DNA from: Galbibacter orientalis DSM 19592
GTDB taxonomy: Bacteria > Bacteroidota > Bacteroidia > Flavobacteriales > Flavobacteriaceae
Direction of reading: 5' to 3'
DNA length: 64,000 bases
Assembly: GCF_000260115.1 (NCBI RefSeq)
Contig: NZ_JH651380.1
Span: 434,001-498,000, forward strand
Notes under the pieces: generated by a model
The model's database searches: none
Seen by the model: the letters and a program-made list of their open reading frames with translations, nothing else
Told to the model about the DNA's origin: nothing
Program-made: the position numbers and the translations under genes
Shown: one piece after another, positions 32,359-47,822 of the stretch
How the letters are laid out: every line of letters starts with the position of its first letter
How positions within the stretch are numbered: the stretch's first letter is position 1

Positions 32359-33903
32359 ATGGCAAACATACATTTAGACATGCGAAAAATCAAACAACTA
32401 TATCGTTTACATACTCAAGGAGTTAGTAAGCGGAGCATCAGTAAACAACTTGGTATATCCAGGAATACTGTTCGCAAATACATCGAATTATTACTAAAGA
32501 GCAAGCTTACAAGTGAAGAGGTTGATAAGCTTGGTTTTGAAGATTTACGTATATTATTGCATATTGATGAGACCCACATAACGACTCGTCATGAGTATGT
32601 TTTTAAGTTATACCCAGAGGTAAGCAAACGCCTTAAAAAGGTTGGAGTTACTCGTTACATGATCTGGGAGGACTATTATCAAAATAAAAAGGTATTTATC
32701 TCTTATTCTAGATTTTGTCATTTGTATAGAGTTTGGTCTCGTACTCAAAATCCAGTCATGCGATTTAACCATAAGGCTGGGGATAAAATGTTTGTGGACT
32801 TCACAGGAAAGAAATTAGCTATCATAGATCCCGCTACTGGTTTACTAAAAGAAATGGAAGTATTTATTGCTGTACTAGGAGCAAGCGGCTATACCTATGT
32901 AGAAGCTTGTCGTTCACAAAAACGAGAGGATTTTATTGGGTGCATAGTAGGTGCATTACATTTTTTCGGAGGCGTTCCTAGAGCAATAGTAACTGATAAC
33001 TTAAAGTCAGCTGTTACAAAAAGTAGCAAGTATGAGCCTATCCTTAATGAGAGTTTATTGGCTATGGCAACTCATTATGATACCACGATACTTCCAACAA
33101 GAACCTATCGTCCAAGAGATAAGGCACTAGTAGAAAATGCTGTAAAGATTATCTACACAAGAGTTTTTGCTCCATTAAATGGGAATGATTATTATACCTT
33201 AAGTGCTTTAAATGAAGCTGTATTAGAACTCACGGGGAAGCATAATAAAATTAACTTTCAAGCAAGGGACTGTTCTAGGTTAGATTTATTTACATCTTTG
33301 GAGCAAGAAGAATTATTGCCATTGCCTACAGATAAATATCAACTACGTGCCTACCTAATGGGAACAGTATATAAGACCTCTCATATCCACATTAATAAAG
33401 ATAAGCATTATTACAGCGTTCCTTATCGTTATATAGGAAAGAAGGTTCGCATCATTTATACAAAAGACACCGTTGAAATTTACTATAAGCAAAAACGGAT
33501 TGCTGTTCATAAAAGAGGCTTAAAACGTCATGGTTACACTACCGATAGCGAGCATATGCCTTCAACACATCGTTATGTAGCTGATTGGAATCCTGACACC
33601 TTTTTAAATTGGGCTGAAGGTATTGGAGGCCATTGTAAAACTTTCATCACTTTATTATTAGGAAAAAGACAACATCCTGAACAATCCTATAAATCTTGTG
33701 CTGGTGTATTAGGGCTAGCTAAAAAAGTTGGGAATGAACGTCTTGATAATGCTTGTAAACGAGCTTTAGATTATGAACGCATCAATTATCAAAGTGTTAA
33801 AAGTATTCTTGAAAAAGGATTGGATTTTATACAGGAAGATACCAATACAGAATCTACAATCCCTAAGCATGGAAACATCAGAGGGGGCGATTATTATAAA
33901 TAA
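32359..33903 (+). CDS. istA: IS21-family transposase IstA
   Basis: A 514-residue transposase with an N-terminal HTH (QLYRLHTQGVSKRSISKQLGISRNTVRKYI) and an rve-type DDE core. The acidic residues are seen in KMFVDFTGKKL, AIVTDNLKSAVTK and ALVENAVKIIYTR. A C-terminal Mu-transposase-like domain (HYYSVPYRYIGKKVRIIYT) follows. Full length and apparently intact. It catalyses strand transfer together with IstB. Confidence 0.96.
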   Translation: MANIHLDMRKIKQLYRLHTQGVSKRSISKQLGISRNTVRKYIELLLKSKLTSEEVDKLGFEDLRILLHIDETHITTRHEYVFKLYPEVSKRLKKVGVTRYMIWEDYYQNKKVFISYSRFCHLYRVWSRTQNPVMRFNHKAGDKMFVDFTGKKLAIIDPATGLLKEMEVFIAVLGASGYTYVEACRSQKREDFIGCIVGALHFFGGVPRAIVTDNLKSAVTKSSKYEPILNESLLAMATHYDTTILPTRTYRPRDKALVENAVKIIYTRVFAPLNGNDYYTLSALNEAVLELTGKHNKINFQARDCSRLDLFTSLEQEELLPLPTDKYQLRAYLMGTVYKTSHIHINKDKHYYSVPYRYIGKKVRIIYTKDTVEIYYKQKRIAVHKRGLKRHGYTTDSEHMPSTHRYVADWNPDTFLNWAEGIGGHCKTFITLLLGKRQHPEQSYKSCAGVLGLAKKVGNERLDNACKRALDYERINYQSVKSILEKGLDFIQEDTNTESTIPKHGNIRGGDYYK

Positions 33904-33920
33904 TTAAATCATTATAAATT

Positions 33921-34667
33921 ATGAATGACCAAACATTACAACAAATGAAACAACTAAGGCTATATGGCATGCATAGAGCCTTTACGACAACACTAGAAGC
34001 AAATCATCTAGCATATACTAATGATGAGCTAGTAGCGTATTTATTACAATCTGAATGGGATGATAAACACAATAGAAAAATAGAACGATTAACCAAAGCA
34101 GCCAAGTTTAGATATAAAGCTTCTGTAGAAGAGATATCTTTTGAATCCAGCCGAATGATTGACAAAAACCTATTAATTAGGTTCACATCGTGCGAGTTTA
34201 TTAAAAACAAGGAAAACATACTCATTACAGGAAGCACAGGTGTTGGTAAAAGCTTTATTGCCTCAGCTATTGGATACCAAGCTTGTTCTCTAGGGTATAA
34301 AGTCAAATATTACAATATCAATAAGCTTTTTGCTAAACTCAAACTAGCTAAAGCAGACGGTTCATACATGAAAGAAATCGATAGAATAGAAAAACAGGAT
34401 TTGCTCATTCTTGATGATTTTGGACTTCAAGAACTTGATACTAATAAAAGACAAGCTTTTATGGAAATCATCGAAGACAGACATGGAAAACGTGCTACTA
34501 TCATAGCCTCACAACTACCAATTATGGGATGGCATCAAATTATCGGAGAACAAACTATTGCTGATGCTATTTTAGATCGACTGGTACATGCAGCACATAG
34601 AGTGGAACTTAAAGGTGAATCCATGAGAAAAAAAGAAAAAACAATGATAAATTTTATATTTTTATAA
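33921..34667 (+). CDS. istB: IS21-family helper ATPase IstB
   Basis: A 248-residue DnaC-like AAA+ ATPase, 17 bases after istA. The IstB N-terminal region reads MKQLRLYGMHRAFTTTLEA, then Walker A ITGSTGVGKSFIASAIG, Walker B DLLILDDFGLQ, and sensor segment IIASQLPIMGWHQIIGEQTIADAILDRLVH. It regulates target choice and activates IstA. Intact. Confidence 0.96.
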   Translation: MNDQTLQQMKQLRLYGMHRAFTTTLEANHLAYTNDELVAYLLQSEWDDKHNRKIERLTKAAKFRYKASVEEISFESSRMIDKNLLIRFTSCEFIKNKENILITGSTGVGKSFIASAIGYQACSLGYKVKYYNINKLFAKLKLAKADGSYMKEIDRIEKQDLLILDDFGLQELDTNKRQAFMEIIEDRHGKRATIIASQLPIMGWHQIIGEQTIADAILDRLVHAAHRVELKGESMRKKEKTMINFIFL

Positions 34668-34720
34668 GCACAAAACTGCTCTTTTTAGAACCTGTTTTAC
34701 TATGCTCAATTTAAACAGGA

Positions 34721-35176
34721 ATGGGTGGGTCAACTTTACAGGAATTTACAAATACAGGTGTTAATGCGGTGGAACTTTCACATATTAATCATAAAATTGG
34801 AGCCAGTGTGGGTTTACATCTTGACATTCCTATCTATGATGGGAACAGGCGAAAGTATATGCTGGATCAATATAAATTGAAAAAGGAAAATTTAGAAAGG
34901 TATAAGAAAAATGATGCCGTTAAGCTGAATAATGATCTAAAGGCATTGCATAATCAGGTAGACGCCTTACAGAATCAAATGATTCTGCTTAATAAACAAT
35001 TGGATCAGTATGCCCATATCCAAGAAATCTATAAAGAAAAGTTCGTGCAGGGACAGGTTTCTATTGTTGATTATTTAAATGTGATTCAGAATTATAAATC
35101 GAACATGTATACCAAATTACAAGCACAAACAAATTTATGGCTTTTAAAAAGTCAGTTTAACTATACAAATTGGTAA
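34721..35176 (+). pseudogene. TolC-family outer-membrane efflux protein, 5'-truncated by IS21
   Basis: Only the C-terminal half of an outer-membrane efflux protein is left. It includes GASVGLHLDIPIYDGNRRKYMLDQYKLKKENL, long alpha-helical heptads, and VQGQVSIVDYLNVIQNYKSN. A full TolC protein has roughly 420-500 residues; this frame has 151. An ATG at 34721 inside the IS right end happens to be in frame and could start a chimeric peptide, but it would have no signal peptide. The missing 5' half is not found left of the IS. The adaptor gene follows within 3 bases, so this was the first gene of a tripartite efflux operon. Confidence 0.88.
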
Positions 35177-35178
35177 TT

Positions 35179-36102
35179 ATGAAGATAGATATCTCAAAAT
35201 TCTATTTGGTATTCATTTTTTTGATAATAGCGATTGGATGCAATACACCTCCTGTACCTCAAAATAAAGCTAAGACCTTTGTTAGGGTTCAAACAACAAC
35301 AGTTAAAAAAGGTACTATTGATCAATATCGTTTATTTAATGGAGTTACCAAATATCAGCGAAAGGAAGCTATCCGAGCCAACGTAACTGGATATATTTCT
35401 ACAATCAATTTTGAGGTTGGTAATTCTATTAATAAAGGGCAAGTTTTATGCTACATAAGAACAAAAGAACAACAAGCTCTTGGAGCTGCTGTAAAAATAG
35501 ATAGTTCTCTGGCAAAACTTACCATTCCTATGGATATAAAAAGTAAGGCGACTGGGGTAGTTTCCATTATAAATTATAATGAGAATAGTTATGTTTCAGA
35601 AGGGGCTATTATAGCCACTGTTACACAACCAAATTCGTTGACTATACAAGTAAGTATTCCTTTCGATCAAAGTAAAGAAATAAACAAGGGAATGCCTTGT
35701 GAGGTTATTTTAAAAGACACCACCATCAATGCTAAAATTAGTCAACAATTGCCCATAATTGAACCTTTGACCCAAAATCAACAATTTTTAATTGAAATGC
35801 CAAAGATTGTTTTACCAGAAAGCTTAAAAGTACAGATTCGAATGTTGGGAAAAATAGCTATGAATGCGATGGTACTTCCCAAATCTGCCATACAGACTAA
35901 TGAACTGCAAACTAAGTTTTGGGTTATGAAAGTTTTAAATGATTCTTTAGCTGTAAAAATTAATGTAATTCCATTATTGGAAAATGATTCTTTGGTTCAA
36001 ATAAAATCAACTATGTTAGATTATAAAGATACTATTATTATTAAGGGAGCATATCAATTACAAGATACTACTGTAGTCCGTATTGAAAATCCAGCGCCAT
36101 GA
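35179..36102 (+). CDS. RND efflux periplasmic adaptor lipoprotein (HlyD/MFP family)
   Basis: From ATG 35179 the protein has 307 residues; the TTG at 35170 overlaps the TolC stop and is unlikely. The lipobox is FLIIAIGC. The membrane-fusion-protein fold shows as a split lipoyl domain: FNGVTKYQRKEAIRANVTGYISTINFEVGNSINKGQVLCYI and KATGVVSIINYNENSYVSEGAIIATV. Beta-barrel strands and a proximal domain follow. The usual long alpha-hairpin between the lipoyl halves is very short, so the adaptor is of the compact type. It bridges the inner-membrane pump to an outer-membrane channel. Its end overlaps the pump start (ATGA). Confidence 0.9.
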   Translation: MKIDISKFYLVFIFLIIAIGCNTPPVPQNKAKTFVRVQTTTVKKGTIDQYRLFNGVTKYQRKEAIRANVTGYISTINFEVGNSINKGQVLCYIRTKEQQALGAAVKIDSSLAKLTIPMDIKSKATGVVSIINYNENSYVSEGAIIATVTQPNSLTIQVSIPFDQSKEINKGMPCEVILKDTTINAKISQQLPIIEPLTQNQQFLIEMPKIVLPESLKVQIRMLGKIAMNAMVLPKSAIQTNELQTKFWVMKVLNDSLAVKINVIPLLENDSLVQIKSTMLDYKDTIIIKGAYQLQDTTVVRIENPAP

Positions 36103-39100
36103 ATGTTAACTTCGTAAAATACAAATATCCTTTTTTGATTTTGGCAATACTCATCTTAGCTGGTGGGCTTTTTTCTTACCAAAAATTAAAAACAGGATTG
36201 TTTCCGGATATCACTTTTCCAAAGATCAAAGTAATTGCTGATGCAGGACAACAACCAGTGGATAAAATGATGACAGCGGTTACCATTCCTCTAGAAAATG
36301 CATTGAGACGAACAGAAGGATTACAATATATTAAAAGTACTACCTCTCGTGGAAGTTGTGAGATTTCCGTATTTCTAGATTGGGATATGGATATTAATAT
36401 AGCTAAATCTCAAATAGAATCCTATATTAATCAATCACAGGGAAGTATTCTCCCAAACACCAATTTTTTAGTAGAGAAAATGAACCCTTCCATATTGCCA
36501 GTTATAGGCTATTCTTTGGAAGGAGATAATTACTCTTTGGTAGATTTAAAGAAAATAGCTAAATATCAAATAAAGCCCTATTTGGCTGCAAGTCCAGGAG
36601 TTGCAGATGTGGTGGTGGTTGGGGGGAAGGAAAAAGAGTATCAGGTGGTATTGGATCCTGTAAAGTTCAATAAGTTTGGAATTGGTATTTCTACAGTTAA
36701 GAATGCTATTGTCAATGCCAATATTCTTCAATCCAATGGGTATATTGCAGATCATAATCGTTTGTATCTAACACTTACTGATAATGCCATAACTCAAAGA
36801 ACCGATTTGGAAAATATCCCAATTATTAATACTTCCAGTGGATTTATTCGCTTAAAGGATATTGCTTCTATTGATATTAAAGAGGTAAAAGAATATGTTA
36901 GAATTTTGGCCAATGGGAAAAATACACCTCTTATTGCCATAGTGAAACAATCAACAGCCAATTTAATGGAGGTTACCACTGAAACAGAGAAAAAAATTGA
37001 TGAATTGGCAAGCATTTTGCCCAAAGGAATTTATCTAAAACCTTACTATAAGCAAGCCGATTTTGTAGGTGAAAGCATTCGTAGTATAAAAGATGTCCTA
37101 TGGATTGGACTTTTATTAGCATTGTTTGTTGTTGTTTATTTTTTAAAATCAATTTCAGCAAGTTTATTGGTGCTGTTTTCCATTCCTATTTCTTTATCGC
37201 TTACCTTGATTGGTTTAGATATTATGGGTTACTCGTTTAATATTATGACCCTTGGAGCTATTGCAGCTGCAATAGGCCTGATGATAGATGACGTGGTAAT
37301 TGTGATAGAACAAATCCATAAAATTAGAGAGGAAAATCTTGAAGAATCTATTGGAGGGATTGTTCACAGAAGTATTCAATATTTATTTCCAGCAATGATA
37401 GGGTCATCTCTTAGCACATTAGTTATATTCATCCCTTTTATACTTATGACAGGAGTAGCAGGGGCTTATTTCAAAGTAATGGCCTTTACAATGGTTATTG
37501 CGCTCATTGCTTCCTTTGTCGTTTCGTGGTTGGTGTTACCCGTTTTAGCGATTTTTTTATCCAAGGGATCTCATAAAAAGAATATAAAGAGACAAAGTAC
37601 CAAATGGATACACTTTATTTTAAGGCGTCCAATTATTGGAGTTTTATTTGCTTTTTTATGTGTTTTAATTCTACTGGCTGTTCCTTCTAGATTAACCACG
37701 GGTTTTTTACCCGAAATGGACGAGGGGAGTATTGTGTTGGATTTTAATAGTCCACCTGGTACAACCTTGGAGGAAACCAACCGAATGCTTTCAGAGGTTA
37801 ATCATATATTGAACAATCAAGAAGAGGTGGAGGCGTACTCTGCTCGTATGGGAACTCAAATGGGCTTTTTTATTACGGAACCAAACCGTGGGGATTACCT
37901 CATAAAATTAAAAGATTCTAAAAATAAAACTACAACAGCCGTAGCCGATGAAATAAGACAAAAATTAGAGATGTCAATTCCGCAACTTACGGTAGATTTT
38001 GGCCAGGTTATTGGTGATATGTTGGGAGATTTAATGAGTTCTGTACAACCAATAGAAATAAAAGTATTTGGATCGGATGTGAAAACACTTCAAATACTTT
38101 CAAAACAAATTGCTGCTGAGATAAAACAGGTGGATGGAACTGTTGATGTAAATGATGGAGTAATTGTTGCCGGACCTACGCTCTCAATAATACCAAATAC
38201 CTATACACTTTCTCAATTGGGACTTACAGCAAATGATTTACAATTACAATTACAAACCCAAATAGAAGGGATGGTAGTGAGTACTATATATGAAAACGAA
38301 CAAATAGTGCCTATTCGTTTGATATATTCCAATATTAAAAATTTAGACATTGATAATATCAGGAATACTAAAATAATATTACCAAATGGATCATCAATTG
38401 CTATTGATAAAGTAGCTTCCATAACTTTAGGAAAAGGAGTGGCTGAAATTAATAGAGAAAACCAAAAATCCATGGGGGTAATTACTGCACGATTGGATCA
38501 GCGTGATCTAGGATCTGCCGTAGTGGAAATCAAGAATCTAATAACCGAAAAAATCAGTATTCCAAGTGGATATCACATAGCTTATGGGGGAGCTTATAAA
38601 GAACAACAACAGGCATTTCAGGAATTGTTATTAATTCTAATTAGTGCTTTTTTATTAGTCTTTATGATTATTCTCTGTTTGTTTCGAAAGCTTATTATTG
38701 CTATTATGATACTCATTATAGGAGTGCTCGGGGTTGCAGGTTGTTTGTTAAGTCTTTTTATTACAGGAACCCCATTGAATGTTGGAAGTTATACAGGGAT
38801 TATCATGATTGTTGGGATTTTAGGGGAGAACAGCATCTTTACCTATTTACAGTTTTTAGAGACAGATACAAAGTGGTCTGTTTTAAAAAGGATCGAATAT
38901 GCCATAGCTGAAAGGTTGCGACCAAAGCTAATGACAACTACCGCCGCAATGATGGCTTTGATTCCTTTGGCACTTGGTATCGGAACGGGTGCACAATTAC
39001 ATCAACCATTAGCTATTGCGGTTATTGGAGGGCTACTATTTGCTTTGCCACTTTTATTAGTGGTATTGCCTACAATGCTTGAATACATTGAAAAAAAGAG

Positions 39101-39107
39101 AAAGTGA
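36099..39107 (+). CDS. RND efflux inner-membrane transporter
   Basis: A 1,002-residue RND pump with the usual 12 membrane segments and two large periplasmic loops. It starts with NFVKYKYPFLILAILILAGGLFSYQKLKTGLFPDITFPKI. TM4 carries the proton-relay motif in IAAAIGLMIDDVVIVIEQ. The porter domains include IKSTTSRGSCEISVFLDWDMD and EMDEGSIVLDFNSPPGTTLEETN. The second half repeats the TM pattern, with MIVGILGENSIFTYLQ and PKLMTTTAAMMALIPLALG. The substrate is unknown; the absence of a Met-rich cluster argues weakly against a copper exporter. Encoded with its adaptor, but the cognate TolC gene is broken. Confidence 0.94.
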   Translation: MNVNFVKYKYPFLILAILILAGGLFSYQKLKTGLFPDITFPKIKVIADAGQQPVDKMMTAVTIPLENALRRTEGLQYIKSTTSRGSCEISVFLDWDMDINIAKSQIESYINQSQGSILPNTNFLVEKMNPSILPVIGYSLEGDNYSLVDLKKIAKYQIKPYLAASPGVADVVVVGGKEKEYQVVLDPVKFNKFGIGISTVKNAIVNANILQSNGYIADHNRLYLTLTDNAITQRTDLENIPIINTSSGFIRLKDIASIDIKEVKEYVRILANGKNTPLIAIVKQSTANLMEVTTETEKKIDELASILPKGIYLKPYYKQADFVGESIRSIKDVLWIGLLLALFVVVYFLKSISASLLVLFSIPISLSLTLIGLDIMGYSFNIMTLGAIAAAIGLMIDDVVIVIEQIHKIREENLEESIGGIVHRSIQYLFPAMIGSSLSTLVIFIPFILMTGVAGAYFKVMAFTMVIALIASFVVSWLVLPVLAIFLSKGSHKKNIKRQSTKWIHFILRRPIIGVLFAFLCVLILLAVPSRLTTGFLPEMDEGSIVLDFNSPPGTTLEETNRMLSEVNHILNNQEEVEAYSARMGTQMGFFITEPNRGDYLIKLKDSKNKTTTAVADEIRQKLEMSIPQLTVDFGQVIGDMLGDLMSSVQPIEIKVFGSDVKTLQILSKQIAAEIKQVDGTVDVNDGVIVAGPTLSIIPNTYTLSQLGLTANDLQLQLQTQIEGMVVSTIYENEQIVPIRLIYSNIKNLDIDNIRNTKIILPNGSSIAIDKVASITLGKGVAEINRENQKSMGVITARLDQRDLGSAVVEIKNLITEKISIPSGYHIAYGGAYKEQQQAFQELLLILISAFLLVFMIILCLFRKLIIAIMILIIGVLGVAGCLLSLFITGTPLNVGSYTGIIMIVGILGENSIFTYLQFLETDTKWSVLKRIEYAIAERLRPKLMTTTAAMMALIPLALGIGTGAQLHQPLAIAVIGGLLFALPLLLVVLPTMLEYIEKKRK

Positions 39108-39153: not shown

Positions 39154-39831
39154 ATGAAAATATTAATTGCAGAGGATGAATTTTCTTTACAGCAGTCTAT
39201 TGCCATTTATCTTGAAAAGCAAGGGAATGTGTGCGAAGTGGCTTCAGATTTTAATGAAGCGTCTTATAAGGTGTCACTATATGATTATGATATTGTTATA
39301 CTGGATCTCAATTTGTTGACTGGGAGTGGGATTGATATCTTGAAGCAGTTGAAGAAGGAACAGGATGCTAATACCGCTGTTATTATTATATCTGCAAATA
39401 ATTCTTTGGATGATAAATTAAAAGGTTTGGATCTCGGAGCAGATGATTATTTAACAAAACCATTTCATTTAGCGGAGCTTAATTCCCGAGTAAAGGCCAT
39501 CTTAAGAAGGCAAAAGTTTGGAGGAGGTACAATTGTTGTTTTTAACGAGATTAAAATAGATACTGATGGACATGTGGTTACAGTGGGAGAAAAAGTGATT
39601 GTACTCACTAAAAAAGAATATGATTTGTTACTTTTTTTTGTAACCAATAAAAATAGGGTACTATCCAAGGAAATTATAGCAGAACACCTCTGGGGAGACA
39701 ACAGTGATTTAATTGACAATTTTGATTTTATTTATGTGCATGTCAATAATTTACGAAAAAAACTCACGAAAGAAGGAGCAAAATATATTAAAACAGCCTA
39801 TGGAAGTGGGTACAAATTCATAGATGATTAA
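39154..39831 (+). CDS. OmpR/PhoB-family response regulator
   Basis: A 225-residue protein. The receiver domain has the acidic pair in LIAEDE, the phospho-acceptor Asp51 in DIVILDLNLLTGSG, and Lys in DDYLTKPFHLAEL. A winged-helix C-terminal domain follows (VVTVGEKVIVLTKKEYDLLLFFVTNKNRVLSKEIIAEHLWG, FIYVHVNNLRKKL, IKTAYGSGYKFID). It directly precedes its kinase, with the kinase ATG right after the stop. It is the obvious candidate to bind the 7-4-7 direct repeats found before four nearby genes (inference). Confidence 0.96.
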   Translation: MKILIAEDEFSLQQSIAIYLEKQGNVCEVASDFNEASYKVSLYDYDIVILDLNLLTGSGIDILKQLKKEQDANTAVIIISANNSLDDKLKGLDLGADDYLTKPFHLAELNSRVKAILRRQKFGGGTIVVFNEIKIDTDGHVVTVGEKVIVLTKKEYDLLLFFVTNKNRVLSKEIIAEHLWGDNSDLIDNFDFIYVHVNNLRKKLTKEGAKYIKTAYGSGYKFIDD

Positions 39832-41088
39832 ATGAATAAGAATAGGAAAAAGGTAGGTCTCATACAAAAGACTTCCAATATTTTTATAATGGTAAGCTTA
39901 CTGTTAATGTCTTTAAGTTCAATTGCGCTTTATTTTTATTTACGAAATATTTTGGAAGTGGAAATTGAGGAGCAGTTGTATTCTACAGCTGCTAGGATTG
40001 AAAGTTCACTGGAAGCGGGTAAAAATCCATATTCATTGCCGCCAGCAGTAGAAGTAGCTACTTCCAATAAATCTCTTCCTGATATTTTGAAAGATACCTT
40101 AATTTATGACCCTTCACAAGATGAGATAGAACTTTTTAGGGAACTTTCAAGTTTTAAAAAAATCAATAATATTAATTATAAAATCACAGTGCGTGATCTT
40201 GTAGTGGAATCTGAAAATATATTGATGGCCATAATTATTTCCTATTTATTAATTATTATAACGGTATTTGTAGTGTTGTATTACTTTAACAAAGTAGGAA
40301 ATTCCTATTTGTGGAAACCATTTTTTAATACGTTGGAACAAATAAAAGAATTTTCTCTATCCACTAAAGAACCAGTAGCACTGTCAATCTCTAATATTAG
40401 AGAGTTTAGTGAACTGAATACCCAAGTAAAAATACTTACTGATAAAGTAAGGGGAGATTATAACAATCTAAAGCAATTTACAGAGGATGTTTCCCATGAA
40501 TTACAAACTCCCTTGGCCATCATGCAGGTTAAAATAGAGAGTGTTATAAATGATGCACCATTAAGCAACCAACAATATGATCAGTTGACATCCATTCAAA
40601 AAGATATTAAGCGAGTAACTCAAATGAATAAGGGATTGACACTGCTTACAAAAATAGAGAACAATCAATTTATAAACCCAAAACAAGTTTCATTGACTTC
40701 TATCGTAGAGGGGAATATTGCTAATTTTAAAGAGATATTCCAACAAGATATTCAGTTCGTAAATGAAAATGAGCTTTTGGTGACTATGGATTACCATTTG
40801 GCAGAAATTCTATGTAATAATTTAATTTCCAATGCTATTAAGCATCACATAGGTAGTGGGGATATAGTTATTGAAATTACTAAAGAGCATTTATCTGTAT
40901 GTAATAAGGGGGAGAAACCAATTTTACATGCAGATCGGATATTCAATCGTTTTTATAAAGAAAATGAGAGTGTGAAATCCACTGGTTTAGGGCTTGCCAT
41001 TGCAAAGAAGATTTGCGATATGTATAATTTTAAGCTTACCTATACATTCGAAAAAGGATTCCATATATTTTTAGTTCAATTTTCATAA
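39832..41088 (+). CDS. Two-component sensor histidine kinase
   Basis: A 418-residue membrane kinase. TM1 spans about 14-35 and TM2 about 130-152, enclosing a small periplasmic sensor of about 95 residues (ILEVEIEEQLYSTAARIESSLEAGKNPYS). The H-box is FTEDVSHELQTPLAIMQVKIE with phospho-His222, the N-box LCNNLISNAIKHH, and the G-box STGLGLAIAKKICD. It pairs with the response regulator encoded immediately before it. The signal is unknown; the gene set it probably controls suggests envelope stress or a cationic agent (inference). Confidence 0.95.
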   Translation: MNKNRKKVGLIQKTSNIFIMVSLLLMSLSSIALYFYLRNILEVEIEEQLYSTAARIESSLEAGKNPYSLPPAVEVATSNKSLPDILKDTLIYDPSQDEIELFRELSSFKKINNINYKITVRDLVVESENILMAIIISYLLIIITVFVVLYYFNKVGNSYLWKPFFNTLEQIKEFSLSTKEPVALSISNIREFSELNTQVKILTDKVRGDYNNLKQFTEDVSHELQTPLAIMQVKIESVINDAPLSNQQYDQLTSIQKDIKRVTQMNKGLTLLTKIENNQFINPKQVSLTSIVEGNIANFKEIFQQDIQFVNENELLVTMDYHLAEILCNNLISNAIKHHIGSGDIVIEITKEHLSVCNKGEKPILHADRIFNRFYKENESVKSTGLGLAIAKKICDMYNFKLTYTFEKGFHIFLVQFS

Positions 41089-41129: not shown

Positions 41130-41164
41130 CTTTAAACCATCTTTAAATTTGCTTTTTAAGTTTA
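41130..41164 (+). promoter_or_regulatory. Response-regulator box and promoter, site A (TonB receptor)
   Basis: CTTTAAA (41130-41136), CCAT, CTTTAAA (41141-41147), then 9 bases, then TAAGTTTA (41157-41164). The predicted transcript begins just before ATG 41182, which rules out the upstream TTG at 41149 as the start. Same geometry as sites B, C and D. Confidence 0.75.
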
Positions 41165-41181
41165 TCCAAAATTCAGACATA

Positions 41182-43605
41182 ATGGATAAAATAAAGATAC
41201 GATTGTTGTCTTCCTTTTTGGCAATATTTGGTGTTTGCGAAGCGCAGGAAAAAATAACAATTTCTGGAAAAGTAAAAGATAATCAAACCAATGAAGTATT
41301 ACCTTTTACTTCTGTAACAGTAAATAAAGAAACTTCTGAGACGTTTGTAGTAGGAACAATTACAGATGAAGCGGGTAATTTTCAGATAGAAGGATTGGCA
41401 TTGGGAAATTATAGTATAAACATCTCTTTTGTAGGCTATGAGCAATCGCAACGGATGATTTATGCAAGCGGAATAAATACCACTTTTAATCTAGGAGTAA
41501 TTCCGTTGAATCCCACATCCGAAACTTTGGAAGCGGTGGAGGTTTCAGTAAAAAGAGAAGTGACCAATGCTGCATTAAGTAAAAAAAGTTTTTCACTTAC
41601 CGATAATATTGCTAATTCTGGTGGCTCGGTATTGGAAGCTATGAAATCAATGCCCGGGGTTACTTTTGATCAAGATGGAAAAGTGTTGTTGAGAGGGAGT
41701 GATAAGGTTACTGTGCTTATAGATGGAAAACAGTCCAGTTTAACTGGGTTTGGAAACCAAAAAGGATTGGGAAATATTCCAGTTTCAAATATTGATAGGA
41801 TAGAGATCATTAATAATCCTTCGGCTAAGTATGATGCCAATGGCTTGGCGGGAATTATTAATATCATCTATAAAGATGAGCAAGAAAGAGGATTAAATGG
41901 AACTGTAGGACTTTCATCTGGGATAGGGGCTTTCAGTAAGCGAAAGGAGGATCTCCCGACCGATCTGGGTTCTTATTATATGAATCCGAAATTAATTCCA
42001 AGCATAGATTTTAACTATAGAACTAAAAAGTTCAATTACTTTTTTCAGTCAGAATTTATCATTCAAGAAGCGCTTCCCAATAATGAGTATACCACTAGAT
42101 TCTATAATGATGGAAGGAAGATTACATCCCAAGTTCCTGAGAACAGAAAACAGTTCAGGGTTATCTTAAAAGGAGGTATTGATTGGAATTTTAATGAGAA
42201 TAATAGGTTTACTTTTTCAGGGATGTACGATAGAGAAAAACATATAGATACCTCTCAAGTAGCTTTTATCAACCTAGCCTCCAGTCAAAGAGAACGCTAT
42301 TATAACTGGAAAGAAGAAGAGATAACAAGTAACATTAATGTGGTAGCAGATTATGAACATTCATTTTCGCAGCCTGGGCAAACCTTTAATGCAAACCTAC
42401 AATATACAAGAGGTTTGGAGGATGAAAGTTATTTTTTGAATGATAGTTCTTCCATTCGGTTGGGGAGGGATGTTACGCATATAAAAGCGGTAGAACATAC
42501 CCTGGGAGTGTCAGCTAATTACGCACAGGCACTAGCAGCTGGGAAGTTGGAGGTGGGCACCAAAGTTAGAGTTCGCCGTCTTCCTGTGGATTATATTGTT
42601 GAAAGAGGAAATAATTCAATTATTTATGAAGGGCTCGGGGATTATTCCGATTGGGGAGAGAATCTCTTTGCAGGGTATGCAAACTTTGTATATGAAAGAG
42701 CACATTTTGAAATAGAAGCAGGTTTAAGAGCTGAGTATACCGAGGTTTTTTATACTCTCGACCCTACAAATATCTACTACAATTCCAACGACGATTACGA
42801 CTATTTTAAATTTTTTCCAAGTGTACGATATACTCAAAAGCTGAACCAAAATAACAATATATCCCTTTTTTATAATCGTCGAATTGATCGTCCTGGAGAA
42901 GCAGAACTCAGGATTTTTCCAAAGTATGATGACCCTGAACTCTTAAAAGTAGGGAATCCCTATTTACGTCCTCAATACACAGAATCTATAGAATTGGCAC
43001 ATAAATTTTCATGGACCACAGGTTCTTTATTTTCCGCTTTATATCACAAAAAGATAACCGATGAATATCGAAGAATTTATAGTATTGATGATTCGAATCC
43101 AACGTATGATATTATCAATAGAATATATCAAAATACAGGAAAGACGTTGTCAAGCGGAATAGAAATACTTTTTAATCAGGATATTTCCTCTTATTGGGAA
43201 TTGGGTATGAGTGCAAATTTTTTTAGAAATAAGGTAGCAGCTTATACTGGAACTGTCTTGTTTCCCTATGAAAGATCCTTTTATATAGAAGAATCTAAGG
43301 CAAATGCTACTATTTTAAAACTAACCAATGAATTTCAGCTGCCTTGGGAGTTACAATTTCAAGTGGTAGGGCTTTATTATTCACCAAAAAATATACCGCA
43401 AGGAAAGGAGCTTTCTCGTTCTTCGGTAGATATTGGAGTGAAGAAAGTCGTATGGAATAAAAAAGGAGAGGTTGCTTTTTCAATGAGTGATATTTTTAAT
43501 ACTTATGGCATTCGACAAGAAATAAACGAAAGCGATTTTACTGCCTTATATCAGAATTATTATGAGACACAGATTGCGAGAATATCTTTTAAATATAAGT
43601 TCTAA
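41182..43605 (+). CDS. TonB-dependent receptor-like outer-membrane protein
   Basis: From ATG 41182 the protein has 807 residues, with a signal peptide ending CEAQ. A carboxypeptidase-regulatory-like domain (KITISGKVKDNQTNEVLPFTSVTV, GNFQIEGLALGNYSI, SFVGYEQ) is followed by a TonB plug (SGGSVLEAMKSMPGVTFDQDGKVLLRGSDKVTVLIDGKQS, IEIINNPSAKYDANGLAGIINIIYK). The long barrel of the outer-membrane beta-barrel type ends RISFKYKF. It is not a SusC protein: the SusC box is missing and there is no SusD. The substrate is unknown. It is preceded by response-regulator site A, so it is likely controlled by the adjacent two-component system. Confidence 0.9.
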   Translation: MDKIKIRLLSSFLAIFGVCEAQEKITISGKVKDNQTNEVLPFTSVTVNKETSETFVVGTITDEAGNFQIEGLALGNYSINISFVGYEQSQRMIYASGINTTFNLGVIPLNPTSETLEAVEVSVKREVTNAALSKKSFSLTDNIANSGGSVLEAMKSMPGVTFDQDGKVLLRGSDKVTVLIDGKQSSLTGFGNQKGLGNIPVSNIDRIEIINNPSAKYDANGLAGIINIIYKDEQERGLNGTVGLSSGIGAFSKRKEDLPTDLGSYYMNPKLIPSIDFNYRTKKFNYFFQSEFIIQEALPNNEYTTRFYNDGRKITSQVPENRKQFRVILKGGIDWNFNENNRFTFSGMYDREKHIDTSQVAFINLASSQRERYYNWKEEEITSNINVVADYEHSFSQPGQTFNANLQYTRGLEDESYFLNDSSSIRLGRDVTHIKAVEHTLGVSANYAQALAAGKLEVGTKVRVRRLPVDYIVERGNNSIIYEGLGDYSDWGENLFAGYANFVYERAHFEIEAGLRAEYTEVFYTLDPTNIYYNSNDDYDYFKFFPSVRYTQKLNQNNNISLFYNRRIDRPGEAELRIFPKYDDPELLKVGNPYLRPQYTESIELAHKFSWTTGSLFSALYHKKITDEYRRIYSIDDSNPTYDIINRIYQNTGKTLSSGIEILFNQDISSYWELGMSANFFRNKVAAYTGTVLFPYERSFYIEESKANATILKLTNEFQLPWELQFQVVGLYYSPKNIPQGKELSRSSVDIGVKKVVWNKKGEVAFSMSDIFNTYGIRQEINESDFTALYQNYYETQIARISFKYKF

Positions 43606-43608
43606 CCA

Positions 43609-43643
43609 CTTAAACATTCCTTTAGAATTAGTTCCTAATTTTA
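43609..43643 (+). promoter_or_regulatory. Response-regulator box and promoter, site B (PepSY-like gene)
   Basis: CTTAAAC (43609-43615), ATTC, CTTTAGA (43620-43626), then 9 bases, then TAATTTTA (43636-43643), 28 bases before the ATG. It starts 4 bases after the TonB receptor stop. Confidence 0.7.
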
Positions 43644-43671
43644 ATATTATTAACTAAAAATAAAACTTATA

Positions 43672-44124
43672 ATGAAAGTATTAAAGTTATTATTTATGGT
43701 GGTCTCAGTAACAGGGTTAAGTGCCTTTGCCATTAAAAAAGAGGTGCCAGAAAAAGTAGAAGAAGCATTTAATAAAAAATTCCCTGAAGCTAAGGCCGTA
43801 CATTGGGATCAGGAATCTGATCATGAATGGGAAGCAGCATTTAAATATGGTGGACATCGGTATTCAGCCAATTTCATGGATGATGGTACGTGGAAAGAAA
43901 CAGAACATGAAATTAAGTTGAAGCAATTACCAGACAGGGTTCGAATTTCCTTATTTCAAAAGTTCCAAAATTATAAAATTAAAGCGCAAGAAATTTCGGA
44001 AACAACTAATGGTATTCTATACGAATGTGAAATTAAAAAAGGAAAATCCAAATTGGAAGTAGCTTTTGATGAAAAAGGAGAATTAAAGAAAAAAGAAGTG
44101 TTAACAGGAGAAGATGAAGATTAG
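43672..44124 (+). CDS. PepSY-like periplasmic protein
   Basis: A 150-residue exported protein with a signal peptide to about residue 21 (GLSAFA). Two PepSY-like/DUF2874 repeats are seen: VPEKVEEAFNKKFPEAKAVHWDQESDHEWEAAFKYGGHRYSANFMDDGTWKETE-type, then a second starting LPDRVRISLFQKF and ending LEVAFDEKGELKKKEVL. In Bacteroidetes such proteins often accompany two-component systems and TonB receptors, and are thought to be periplasmic binding or inhibitory proteins. It has its own regulated promoter (site B) and a terminator after it. Confidence 0.88.
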   Translation: MKVLKLLFMVVSVTGLSAFAIKKEVPEKVEEAFNKKFPEAKAVHWDQESDHEWEAAFKYGGHRYSANFMDDGTWKETEHEIKLKQLPDRVRISLFQKFQNYKIKAQEISETTNGILYECEIKKGKSKLEVAFDEKGELKKKEVLTGEDED

Positions 44125-44144
44125 GTTTTGATTGTTTCGTATTG

Positions 44145-44180
44145 ATGGGATTTGAATTTATTTTCAAATCCCATTTTTTT
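44145..44180 (+). terminator. Rho-independent terminator after the PepSY-like gene
   Basis: ATGGGATTTGAA (44145-44156) pairs perfectly with TTCAAATCCCAT (44163-44174), followed by six T. Site C lies just after it, so the downstream gene is a separate transcription unit. Confidence 0.92.
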
Positions 44181-44204
44181 GCAATAATCGGAATGAAATA
44201 CAAA

Positions 44205-44239
44205 CTTTAATTTTCCTTTAGATTCTGGTACTAATTTTA
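44205..44239 (+). promoter_or_regulatory. Response-regulator box and promoter, site C (LTA-synthase-like gene)
   Basis: CTTTAAT (44205-44211), TTTC, CTTTAGA (44216-44222), then 9 bases, then TAATTTTA (44232-44239), 27 bases before the ATG. Confidence 0.75.
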
Positions 44240-44266
44240 CCGCTTAAATTTAGATGCAGTAATTTT

Positions 44267-46246
44267 ATGTGGTATTGTCCCCCTAAACGTTTTGAATTAT
44301 TGAAGGTTTTTGTTCTTTTTTTTATAAGCCTTTCATTTGTTGTAAGATCAATTTTTTTATTGTGGAATTTAGGTGAGGTGGATGTACATTTTATTGATAT
44401 AATACGAATTTTTATAACAGGTTTGTTTTATGACTTGGGAACAATTTCGTTTTTTACCCTTCCGTATTTGCTGTATTTAATGATTATTCCTAATAAATGG
44501 ATTGGGAGTTTATTTGATCGAATAGCTACCTATACAGGTTTTACCATAGGAATATTGATGCTCTATTTTTCATTTTTTGCAGAAATTACATTCTGGGATG
44601 AATTCCATAGAAGATTTAATTTTATAGCAGTAGATTATCTAATCTATACCTATGAGGTAGTTCAAAATATAAATGAGTCCTATCCCTTACCGATTTTAAT
44701 TTCTAGCATCTTGTTATTGGCTATTGGTACCTTATATTTAATATATAAATGCAAGGTTTTTAAACATATATTTCTGACGCAAATAACATTTAAAAAGAAA
44801 GTATTATTTTCTTTACCTTGGATTGTAATAGCCATTTGTTTTAGCATGTTTGTTTCCAATGAAGGTGCTGATTGGTCTAGAAACCGGTACAATAATGAAC
44901 TTTCTAAGGCGGGGATTTATTCCTTTTTTGCCGCCTTTAGAAATAATGCACTTTCTTACACGGAATTTTACAAAACCCTTACAGAAAAAGAATCTCATGC
45001 TTTGGTTAGCAAACAATACGAAGCTTCTGGAAAATTGATTAATCCGAAAAAAAATCCAATATATAGAAATATTTCACGGCATGATTCACTTCAAAGTGAA
45101 ATAACCCCCAATGTTATATTTATTTGTGTGGAGAGTTTAAGTGCAAAATTCTTAGGAGTATTTGGCAATGAAAAGGGGCTTACTCCGAACTTGGATAAGC
45201 TTTCTAAGGATGGGGTTTTGTTTTCAAATCTATATGCTACAGGAACCAGGACGGTTCGTGGAATGGAAGCCATAACCTTATCGATTCCACCAACACCTGG
45301 ACGAAGTATTGTGAAAAGAGAACGGAATACGGGAATGTTTACTATTGGTGAAGTGTTTAAAAATAAAGGGTATACCCGTAACTTCTATTATGGGGGAGAT
45401 GGCTATTTCGATAATATGAATACGTATTTTAGTGGTAATGGTTTTAATATTATAGATAGAGGAAGAAATTTTTTGATTGGAGATGAGATAGAAACCATTA
45501 GGACGAATATTAATGATGAAGAAGTAAGTTTTGAAAATGCTTGGGGTGTATGCGATGAGGATCTTTTTAGTAAAGTCTTACAACAAGCAGATTTGCAGAC
45601 TGTTAATGGAACACCTTTTTTTGACTTTATCATGACTACTTCTAATCATAAACCTTATACCTATCCTAATGGAAAAATAGACATCCCGTCGGGGAGTGGT
45701 CGCGATGGAGCCGTTAAATATACAGATTATGCGATTGGAAAGTTTATTGAAAAAGCTAAAACAAAGCCGTGGTTTAAAAATACTGTATTTGTGATTATGA
45801 GTGATCATTGTGCCAGTAGTGCTGGAAGGTGGGAATTAGATGTTAAGAATTATCATATTCCTGCTATTATCTACAACCTGCCTAATAAACACTCAGAAAA
45901 GGTTGAGAAACTCTGTTCTCAAATCGATCTTTTCCCAACACTATTCGGTTATTTTAATTGGGAGTATAGTTCAAACTTCTTTGGGCAGGATATCACAAAT
46001 AAAGCTTCAGATAGGGAAAGGGCTTTTATTGGAAATTATAGAAAACTTGGACTTTTAAAAGGAAATGATGTAATGATCCTTGGAGACCAAAAAACTGCTA
46101 ATTTTTATACATGGGATGATAAAACCAATGAACTGACGAAACAAACATTATCCAATGACTATTTAAATCAGACCATATCTTTTTATCAAACTGCCGATGA
46201 TTTATATACCAGCGGTAAGCTCACTTTAAAAAGTTTAAACAAATGA
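44267..46246 (+). CDS. LTA-synthase-like sulfatase-fold phospho-head-group transferase
   Basis: A 659-residue inner-membrane enzyme. Five hydrophobic segments lie in residues about 10-205, followed by a periplasmic alkaline-phosphatase/sulfatase-fold domain (about 275-610). Active-site candidates are metal-binding Glu289 in IFICVESLSAKF, nucleophile Thr329 in TGTRTVRGMEA, and Asp513-His514 in IMSDHCAS. The family includes LtaS, OpgB and EptA-like enzymes, which move phosphoglycerol or phosphoethanolamine from phospholipid to an acceptor, releasing diacylglycerol. The Thr nucleophile separates it from true sulfatases (Cys/Ser). Its promoter carries site C, and its stop overlaps the lipid kinase start. 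The acceptor is unknown: lipid A, a periplasmic glycan, or other. Confidence 0.88.
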   Translation: MWYCPPKRFELLKVFVLFFISLSFVVRSIFLLWNLGEVDVHFIDIIRIFITGLFYDLGTISFFTLPYLLYLMIIPNKWIGSLFDRIATYTGFTIGILMLYFSFFAEITFWDEFHRRFNFIAVDYLIYTYEVVQNINESYPLPILISSILLLAIGTLYLIYKCKVFKHIFLTQITFKKKVLFSLPWIVIAICFSMFVSNEGADWSRNRYNNELSKAGIYSFFAAFRNNALSYTEFYKTLTEKESHALVSKQYEASGKLINPKKNPIYRNISRHDSLQSEITPNVIFICVESLSAKFLGVFGNEKGLTPNLDKLSKDGVLFSNLYATGTRTVRGMEAITLSIPPTPGRSIVKRERNTGMFTIGEVFKNKGYTRNFYYGGDGYFDNMNTYFSGNGFNIIDRGRNFLIGDEIETIRTNINDEEVSFENAWGVCDEDLFSKVLQQADLQTVNGTPFFDFIMTTSNHKPYTYPNGKIDIPSGSGRDGAVKYTDYAIGKFIEKAKTKPWFKNTVFVIMSDHCASSAGRWELDVKNYHIPAIIYNLPNKHSEKVEKLCSQIDLFPTLFGYFNWEYSSNFFGQDITNKASDRERAFIGNYRKLGLLKGNDVMILGDQKTANFYTWDDKTNELTKQTLSNDYLNQTISFYQTADDLYTSGKLTLKSLNK

Positions 46247-47124
46247 AAAAAATTCATTTCATTGTAAATCCAATTGCAGGAAAAGGGAATAAACATATTG
46301 ATGAAACGCTTTTGAGCAGCTATTTTTCAAAAGACCATTATGAGGTGAGAGTTAAGAGTACAAAGTATAAAGGTGAGGCTGTAGTGCTGACCCAAGAATC
46401 TGTTAGCCAAGGTGCCACTATTATTGTAGCATGTGGTGGTGATGGAACCGTTAATGAGGTAGCTTCTGTCTTAGTGAATTCTCAATGCATCTTAGGGATT
46501 GTACCCATTGGTTCTGGAAATGGATTGGCTTCTCATTTGAAAATACCTAAAGATATTGAAAAGGCACTTTTACTGATTCAGCATGAGATAACAACCAGAA
46601 TTGATGTAGGAAGCTGCAATGGCACTTATTTTTTTAGTAATACAGGCTTTGGATTTGATGCAAAAGTAATACGAAGGTATGAAGGTTTTACTGGGCGTAC
46701 CCTTAATAGTTATTTAAAAGCTTGTGTTGTTACTTTTTTTAATAATAAGAATGAAGATTCTCTTGTAGTAACCATTAACGGAACAAAAAAGTATAAAGAC
46801 CCATTTTTAATTTTTGCATCAAACTCCAATGAATTGGGCTATAATTTTAGTCTTACGCCAAAAGCATCACTACAAGATGGTCTTTTGGATGTTCTTATAA
46901 TCCCAAAGATGCAGAAGCTACAGTTAGTATGGTTTGGGGTAATGTTAATTTTTAAAAGACATCTAGGTTTAAATGGAGTGGTTAGTTATCAAACAAATAA
47001 GCTAGATATAATAAGAAATGAAGGAAGGTATTTTGAATCTCAAATGGATGGTGAATATAAAACTTTAGAAGAAATAGAGGTATCTATTGAATTATTGAAA
47101 GACTCAATTATAGTAATCAATTAA
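46243..47124 (+). CDS. Diacylglycerol/lipid kinase (YegS/DgkB type)
   Basis: A 293-residue cytosolic or membrane-associated kinase. The DAGK catalytic domain shows IVNPIAGKGN, then the nucleotide-binding ACGGDGTVNEVASVL, GIVPIGSGNGLASHLKIP, and FFSNTGFGFDAKVI. It overlaps the transferase gene by ATGA, indicating tight co-expression. The likely role is to phosphorylate diacylglycerol left over when the transferase removes a phospholipid head group, returning phosphatidic acid to lipid synthesis (inference from context; DgkA does this for OpgB in E. coli). Confidence 0.9.
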   Translation: MKKIHFIVNPIAGKGNKHIDETLLSSYFSKDHYEVRVKSTKYKGEAVVLTQESVSQGATIIVACGGDGTVNEVASVLVNSQCILGIVPIGSGNGLASHLKIPKDIEKALLLIQHEITTRIDVGSCNGTYFFSNTGFGFDAKVIRRYEGFTGRTLNSYLKACVVTFFNNKNEDSLVVTINGTKKYKDPFLIFASNSNELGYNFSLTPKASLQDGLLDVLIIPKMQKLQLVWFGVMLIFKRHLGLNGVVSYQTNKLDIIRNEGRYFESQMDGEYKTLEEIEVSIELLKDSIIVIN

Positions 47125-47136
47125 TATTCACTTAAA

Positions 47137-47171
47137 CTTTAGAATGTCTTTAGAATCAAGATTTACTTTTA
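47137..47171 (+). promoter_or_regulatory. Response-regulator box and promoter, site D (PAP2 gene)
   Basis: CTTTAGA (47137-47143), ATGT, CTTTAGA (47148-47154), then 9 bases, then TACTTTTA (47164-47171). The two boxes are identical. A further CTTAAAC directly precedes them at 47131. Confidence 0.75.
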
Positions 47172-47237: not shown

Positions 47238-47822
47238 ATGTGTTCTCTTTTTAATTCCCCTACCAAAACCTTCCATTTTAAAATTCAGAGGTGCTTTATA
47301 TTTTTTGTTTGTCTTATTTGCTTTTGGAATTTGAGATTGTATTCACAAGAAAAAGCGATTGAAATCTCAGGAGATATTCTTTTGTATGCTATGCCTACTA
47401 TTTCATTAGGATCTACCCTTGTCATTGGTGATAAACAAGGAACTTGGCAGTTTCTAAAAGGTTTTGCCGTAAACGAAGCCATGACTTTTGGGTTAAAACT
47501 AGCCATTAGTAAGCCACGACCCAATGAAGCTAATAATAATTCTTTTCCATCAGGGCATACCTCCACGACATTTCAGAGTGCGGCTTTTATTCAAAAACGA
47601 TATGGCTGGAAATATGGAATACCTGCTTATGCATTAGCTGGGTTCACTGGATTTAGTAGGATTTACGCCGATCAGCATGATATACTGGATGTTTTAGCGG
47701 GAGCAGTCATAGGTGTTGGAAGTAGTTATTTATTTACGACTGAATATCAAAAGAAACATATGGAAGTTACATTTACTTCCAATCGAGATAACATATTACT
47801 GGGATTTAATTATAAGTTTTAA
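47238..47822 (+). CDS. PAP2-family membrane phosphatase
   Basis: A 194-residue protein with an N-terminal hydrophobic segment and the full PAP2 signature: KLAISKPRPNE, then SFPSGHTST, then SRIYADQHDILDVLAG. The Arg, both His and the Asp needed for phosphatase activity are present. Such enzymes dephosphorylate phosphatidic acid, undecaprenyl diphosphate or lipid A phosphates on the periplasmic side. It has its own regulated promoter (site D). The context with a head-group transferase and lipid kinase suggests envelope lipid modification or recycling. Confidence 0.92.
   Translation: MCSLFNSPTKTFHFKIQRCFIFFVCLICFWNLRLYSQEKAIEISGDILLYAMPTISLGSTLVIGDKQGTWQFLKGFAVNEAMTFGLKLAISKPRPNEANNNSFPSGHTSTTFQSAAFIQKRYGWKYGIPAYALAGFTGFSRIYADQHDILDVLAGAVIGVGSSYLFTTEYQKKHMEVTFTSNRDNILLGFNYKF

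Follow-up and report, generated by a model that had tools for sequence, protein, structure and literature searches.

What would account for four genes in one region, coding for a TonB receptor, a PepSY-like protein, an LtaS-like transferase and a PAP2 phosphatase, each being preceded by the same arrangement of two 7-bp boxes and a promoter-like element, and which protein would read that arrangement? The region lies within a stretch of 64,000 nucleotides (nt) of Galbibacter orientalis DSM 19592 (contig NZ_JH651380.1, positions 434,001 to 498,000), here called the window, in whose own numbering the four sites are as follows.

41130..41164, + strand: site 1, before the TonB receptor gene, CTTTAAA-CCAT-CTTTAAA-N9-TAAGTTTA; 0 mismatches; 17 nt from the end of the site to the ATG at 41182
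43609..43643, + strand: site 2, before the PepSY-like gene, CTTAAAC-ATTC-CTTTAGA-N9-TAATTTTA; 2 mismatches; 28 nt to the ATG at 43672
44205..44239, + strand: site 3, before the LtaS-like and lipid-kinase genes, CTTTAAT-TTTC-CTTTAGA-N9-TAATTTTA; 1 mismatch; 27 nt to the ATG at 44267
47137..47171, + strand: site 4, before the PAP2 gene, CTTTAGA-ATGT-CTTTAGA-N9-TACTTTTA; 0 mismatches; 66 nt to the ATG at 47238

We conclude that these are very probably the operator-promoters of a single two-component envelope-response system. The sites had been reported in a first-pass annotation, and direct reading of the sequence reproduces their positions and their 7-4-7-9-8 layout exactly; the mismatch counts refer to a pattern with CTTTARA boxes in which up to three mismatches were allowed. 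One correction concerns the TonB receptor gene, whose listed TTG start (41149) falls inside site 1; the in-frame ATG at 41182 is preferred as the probable start, its distance from the site fitting the spacing found elsewhere.

The strict pattern put forward in that annotation, CTTWARA-N4-CTTTARA-N9-TANNTTTR, has no match in 100 shuffles but recovers just two of the four sites in the window, and the relaxed pattern finds 6 matches there against a mean of 0.46 and a largest value of 3 in 100 shuffles. Over the whole genome (4.51 Mb in two contigs, the window sitting on the one of 0.56 Mb) the strict pattern gives 3 matches and its reversed control 0, and with up to two mismatches the counts are 11 and 3. 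Those 11 matches comprise four in the window, three at a paralogous locus (C1:2048751-2051707) and four elsewhere; three of the last group fall within open frames of 150 codons or more and one falls outside any such frame, some 160 nt ahead of the next forward frame, and all four look like background. Rather than being equally common in random AT-rich DNA, the motif is in excess over both shuffles and reversed controls.

The site has a rigid anatomy. In 20 loci fetched around matches to the neighbouring regulator, 57 sites were found with up to three mismatches, against 4 in the reversed control, and when 8 box-to-box distances were combined with 7 box-to-TA distances (18 sequences, 355 kb, up to two mismatches), the N4/N9 spacing gave 54 matches and any of the 55 other spacings at most 9. 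A second set, also of 57 sites but with up to two mismatches, comes from 17 loci whose regulator is at least 65% identical to that of the window (two of them, L055 and L094, are the same contig) and holds 51 distinct sequences; an open reading frame (ORF) of at least 80 codons starts 15-30 nt downstream of 47 of the 57. Position 17 is G in 50 of the 51 distinct sites, and positions 19-20, on which the pattern makes no demand, are conserved as A or T followed by T, with T at position 20 in 46. Upstream of box 1 the relative entropy falls to at most 0.28 bit, so that conservation stops at the box edges. A third half-site at -11 occurs in 10 of the 51, the 15 other offsets giving no more than 6 each, a weak excess that we do not claim as a general feature.

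Promoters of the primary sigma factor of Bacteroidota have TAnnTTTG at -7 and TTTG at -33. At the -7 position the sites carry TAnnTTTR, which the search pattern demanded and which is hence not an independent finding; TTTG at spacers of 17-23 is present in none of the 51. The earlier proposal that the boxes replace the -33 element fits insofar as box 1 occupies the place of TTTG, but that TTTG is missing is not independent proof of it, because the searched position of box 1 largely forces this.

Directly before the first site lie the genes of a response regulator and a kinase, the former being the putative reader of the boxes.

39154..39831, + strand: OmpR/PhoB-type response regulator, recognition helix YVHVNNLR (residues 194-201), proposed binder of the sites (Pfam Response_reg and Trans_reg_C; covariation)
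39832..41088, + strand: sensor histidine kinase of the PorY family (NCBIfam NF052314, 408.2 bits against a cut-off of 350)

The regulator has the two domains of the OmpR/PhoB class, a receiver (PF00072, 87.1 bits) and a winged-helix Trans_reg_C domain (PF00486, 70.2 bits). In a sample of 149 genomes of the family, its own included, in each of which the 19 best first-look candidates were scored, 32 have a match to it at E<=1e-60. A strict cross-genome pattern, CTTHARA-N4-CTTTAGA-N9-TANNTTTR, yields 29 sites in 13 of the 149, and its reversed control 2 matches, in two genomes without a pattern match. Of the 16 genomes whose regulator reaches 60% identity 13 have strict sites, and of the 133 others 0 (Fisher p = 3e-16); under the looser call at E<=1e-60 the counts are 13 of 32 and 0 of 117. 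Where identity is at least 65% (17 loci), 15 loci have a best site with up to two mismatches upstream of the regulator gene and 12 have one behind the kinase gene, with 0 in both controls; between 59% and 65% identity an upstream site is found in 0 of 5 and a post-kinase site in 4 of 5.

Covariation between protein and DNA is, on comparison of the sequences, the best link of the sites to the regulator. A pattern blind at bases 1, 3 and 4 of the half-site finds a site with at most one mismatch in 56 of 161 sequence windows, against 3 in the control, and 55 of these 56 form the covariation set, locus L058 being left out because its helix is unreadable. With lysine as residue 198, C stands at base 4 in 46 of 46 half-sites, and the counts are 4 of 52 with asparagine, 3 of 10 with arginine and 0 of 2 with glycine; the contrast of lysine with asparagine has a Fisher p of 1e-23, the half-sites not being independent of one another. 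Counted by locus, base 4 is C throughout in 23 of 23 loci with Lys198 and in 0 of 23 without it, and on the regulator tree the residue-198 and base-4 traits need four changes each. For residue 196 and base 1 the association is a lead only: among the regulators with Gln196, 11 of the 16 post-kinase best matches listed show T as base 1 in each half-site, 9 of those 11 having 2-4 mismatches.

Two related regulators bear on these residues. In Klebsiella pneumoniae PmrA the residues that read bases are Asn188 and Asn196, and Thr187, Val192 and His195 make contact with bases (PMC4660055); the last-named region aligns with ours, PmrA Val192, His195 and Asn196 matching residues Val195, Asn198 and Asn199 here when the BasR alignment is used and the same numbering is assumed. 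For Mycobacterium tuberculosis PhoP, the cited portion of PMC4832192 has Tyr217 touching motif bases 1-2 and Ser219 touching a phosphate; by hand alignment these correspond to residues 196 and 198 here, so PhoP alone leaves the link of residue 198 with base 4 unexplained, because Ser219 touches phosphate. Co-occurrence, sites before the regulator genes of relatives, a single spacing and covariation together support the assignment of the boxes, in the first-pass annotation, to the neighbouring OmpR/PhoB-type regulator, and the repeats and the covariation support the prediction that it binds direct repeats about 11 bp apart.

The genes that follow the sites in the window, with the predicted targets marked, are these.

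41182..43605, + strand: TonB-dependent receptor of OMP_b-brl_3 type, target (Pfam PF14905, PF07715); start chosen by us
43672..44124, + strand: PepSY-like protein, target (Pfam PF11396)
44267..46246, + strand: LtaS/phosphoglycerol-transferase-like membrane protein of sulfatase fold, target (Pfam PF00884)
46243..47124, + strand: YegS/DAGK-like lipid kinase (Pfam PF00781; TIGR00147, 125.5 bits against a cut-off of 118.65)
47238..47822, + strand: PAP2 phosphatase, target (Pfam PF01569)

The lipid kinase gene, which overlaps the LtaS-like gene by 4 nt, likely shares an operon with it. The best NCBIfam matches of the 44267 protein are phosphoglycerol transferases, under the cut-off, and the top model for the PAP2 protein is LpxE at 46.5 bits, below its cut-off of 177.

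A census of 15 loci (the window, L012 and L047-L059; up to two mismatches outside the window) finds sites before the regulator gene in 12, before a PepSY-like gene in 9, a TonB receptor gene in 6, a PAP2 gene in 6, an LtaS-like gene in 5, a TolC gene in 4 and a GT2 gene in 2. Sites unlinked to the regulator precede a mixture of genes, the names of which were given from sequence: in genome G125 a site 1.27 Mb from the regulator precedes a TolC-like gene, in G037 one precedes a beta-propeller-like gene, and in G119 two lie upstream of gyrB, the first being followed by a 47-codon frame, the second by no frame of 20 codons within 120 nt. Of the other G119 sites one is within a frame and one lies 167 nt before a 103-codon frame, and a site in G025 is not followed by any ORF of 60 codons. 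A C/T-tolerant pattern, applied with up to three mismatches to 80 loci that are more distant or named, gave 70 matches against 11 in the control. Among 20 proteins picked downstream of such sites, Pfam assigns four to OMP_b-brl_3, two to PepSY-like families with two more below the cut-off, two to PAP2, two to OEP, and one each to a sulfatase, YNCE, a glycosyltransferase and a sub-threshold zinc finger, with nothing found for four; the OMP_b-brl_3 cases include metagenome bins labelled KSB1 (L124) and Calditrichota (L141), the bin assignment being unconfirmed. Matching sites precede cell-envelope genes in relatives across Bacteroidota, and the predicted regulon extends beyond the window.

The same genome holds a second locus of this kind at C1:2048751-2051707, where a regulator (C1:2048807-2049478) 70% identical to that of the window, with the nearly identical helix YVHINNLR, is followed by genes for a PorY-family kinase, a PepSY-like protein, GT2, LAB_N, PMT, PEMT, an HD-like ORF, PAP2, TolC (OEP) and an RND adaptor; GT2 and PMT we take to be ArnC/ArnT-like, and the HD-like label is likewise our assumption. 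Its three sites lie before the regulator, the PepSY-like gene and GT2, that of the PepSY-like gene having three half-sites in 11-bp register. The earlier description of a compact regulon is supported as to the shared site before envelope genes, but the predicted regulon is wider than the window, and the second regulator may share the sites. Four kinases in the genome pass the PorY-family cut-off (the fourth at G000:C1:3900204-3901475). At a third regulator paralog (L066, G000:C1:3420000-3438000; helix YYQIKNLR), which has a PepSY-like gene nearby, no site of this kind was found at the locus. Beside the second locus, Rfam places a fluoride riboswitch at L012:4286-4346 on the - strand, followed by a gene that is presumably CrcB-like.

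In the mechanism that we propose, the PorY-family sensor kinase would detect an envelope disturbance and, as expected of its family, phosphorylate the adjacent OmpR/PhoB-type regulator. A dimer of the regulator is predicted, with strong support from sequence comparison, to bind the two head-to-tail CTTTARA half-sites, which at 11 bp apart would both lie on one face of the DNA. To judge by geometry, the bound regulator would occupy the -33 position, 9 bp upstream of the TAnnTTTR -7 element, and recruit RNA polymerase as a class II activator; it is activation rather than repression that we infer. The output would be changed outer-membrane lipids and transport, brought about by the LtaS-like transferase, the lipid kinase, PAP2, the PepSY-like protein and the TonB receptor and, at the paralogous locus or in relatives, by a TolC-RND pump and ArnC/ArnT-like genes.

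The most serious competitor concerns which regulator acts, and we regard it as a real though lesser possibility that the chromosomal paralog, or both regulators together, controls the window genes, with 39154 contributing little. The paralog, with its closely similar sequence and helix, has a site of the same type before its own gene, which the window regulator lacks, but in related loci the sites adjoin one regulator gene, and the window genes adjoin 39154. That the sites are repressor or dual-purpose operators, with the regulator keeping the promoter shut until modified, is unlikely; the boxes directly adjoin the -7 element and the -33 region falls under box 1, where a bound protein could exclude polymerase, but with box 1 in the place of TTTG the promoter would be weak by itself, and the activators PhoB and PmrA likewise have their boxes next to the core promoter. 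A promoter of an alternative sigma factor of extracytoplasmic function (ECF) type, in which the response regulator would have no role, might explain the fixed two-part spacing to a -10-like element; it is very improbable, since occurrence tracks the regulator and base 4 tracks the helix residues, on which grounds we rejected it as the main explanation, and a sigma -35 element does not consist of two equal boxes at an 11-bp distance. Chance similarity or copies of a small repeat element, for which the AT-richness of the region speaks, can be practically dismissed: shuffles, reversed controls and other spacings yield little, and conservation does not extend past the edges of the boxes.

Several observations weigh against an envelope-response system read by the 39154 regulator as we describe it. 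The near-identity of the two recognition helices means that 39154 as sole regulator is not proven, and no site stands in front of its own gene. At 45-59% identity, a site with up to two mismatches is found in only 13 of 60 sequences upstream of the regulator (control 0) and 12 of 57 sequences behind the kinase (control 1); 3 of the 20 loci fetched around regulator matches (L063, L064 and L066) have no match with up to three mismatches, and 34 of the 80 regulators in the tree have no site with at most one mismatch. The covariation rests on about four evolutionary changes, and an independent-pairs test, with two supported pairs that both run in the expected direction (p = 0.5), cannot decide the matter. 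As to co-occurrence, the 60% identity line was set by us after the regulator and locus results were in; an ortholog may be missed beyond the candidates scored in each genome; 3 of the 16 regulator-bearing genomes (G013, G138 and G120) have no strict site, sites with 1-2 mismatches being present; and G117 (L058), counted among both the 16 and the 13, has an in-frame TAG stop within the regulator gene.

Upstream of the regulator lies an interrupted efflux operon.

32359..35176, + strand: IS21-type transposase pair istA/istB (32359-34667) inside a TolC gene, with the TolC remnant at 34721-35176 (ORF translations)
35170..39107, + strand: RND adaptor and pump genes, directly upstream of the regulator (Pfam/NCBIfam searches)

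Just the last 151 codons are left of the disrupted gene; the names IS21 and TolC are those we presume from reading the sequences, without a family search. The relaxed scan of the window found no site before this TolC-RND operon, unlike the four related loci with a site before TolC, and because of that precedent a site belonging to this operon may have been lost through the insertion.

A sister branch of regulators with the helix THMRNLR (L061, L062 and L100) has two or three sites in tandem, about 280 bp apart, after the kinase gene. Each is followed by some 250 nt in which no ORF of 20 codons starts within 120 nt, apart from one 21-codon frame in L100; TGAGGGGA is common to six of the seven copies, the third L062 copy being without it, and terminator-like hairpins can be seen by eye. 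Possibly, from their sequence, these copies are regulator-driven small RNAs. A consensus fold of six copies has almost no covariation support, and an Rfam search of five loci (L061, L062, L100, L067 and L012) at gathering thresholds matched the fluoride riboswitch alone.

Comparison with known systems places the locus near, but outside, several of them. PmrA, which governs polymyxin resistance in enteric bacteria, has a CTTAA-like box and envelope-lipid outputs, such as are predicted here too. The present system shares with PmrA/BasR-PmrB an OmpR/PhoB regulator, aligned base-contact residues and, as the cited part of PMC4660055 gives for PmrA, tandem half-sites; it differs in phylum, in promoter type, in having a PorY-family kinase and in targets that include a TonB receptor, a PepSY-like protein and an RND pump. 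Orthology of the 39154 regulator to PmrA was rejected (NCBIfam NF007928, 157.8 bits against a cut-off of 330), and by sequence the system would resemble PmrA in function and DNA-contact residues without being its equivalog. The sites of M. tuberculosis PhoP, in the cited portion of PMC4832192, are 7-bp direct repeats with a strict 4-bp spacer, the same 7-4-7 geometry, but with the motif TCACAGC, other recognition residues and another regulon. In Bacteroides thetaiotaomicron, PepSY-like BT0922-0923 and RND BT2038-2040 occur in iron-response tables within PMC10434189.

The kinase invites comparison with PorX-PorY of Porphyromonas gingivalis, in that the window kinase and 6 of 6 kinases tested from relatives pass the PorY-family cut-off (NF052314). 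According to the cited part of PMC4800418, P. gingivalis PorY is an orphan gene product acting with PorX, a PglZ-domain regulator of type IX secretion via SigP; the regulator adjacent to the window kinase is instead OmpR-type and so not a PglZ partner. Kinases over the cut-off number 16, in 12 of 61 sampled genomes of the phylum, and in 12 of 12 loci examined (the best kinase per genome) a regulator of the present type, 43-57% identical, is directly adjacent. We offer tentatively, as a possibility short of probable, a joint reading in which an OmpR-type regulator with its own 11-bp box would be the ancestral output of PorY-family kinases, spread through Bacteroidota (and seen also in single KSB1 and Calditrichota bins) as an envelope-lipid response that resembles PmrAB but originated independently of it, with P. 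gingivalis PorX-PorY a rewired exception, residues 195, 196 and 198 setting half-site bases 1 and 4 as a specificity code, and one branch driving tandem small RNAs; its odds are lowered by the small number of phylum genomes that hold a kinase over the cut-off.

A literature search over open PMC papers found no description of the box or the regulon. In the Bacteroidota, a major phylum in sea, soil and gut, few binding sites of response regulators have to our knowledge been defined. By all appearances the system is real and functional-looking, wider than the first-pass annotation saw, and has an unusually clear apparent protein-DNA code. What is gained is a precise site, envelope genes that recur as a set, and a putative protein-DNA code at named residues. 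The results further suggest that the usual partner of kinases labelled 'PorY family' is an OmpR-type regulator encoded next to them and not PorX, a partnership that bears on how the label is used in work on type IX secretion.

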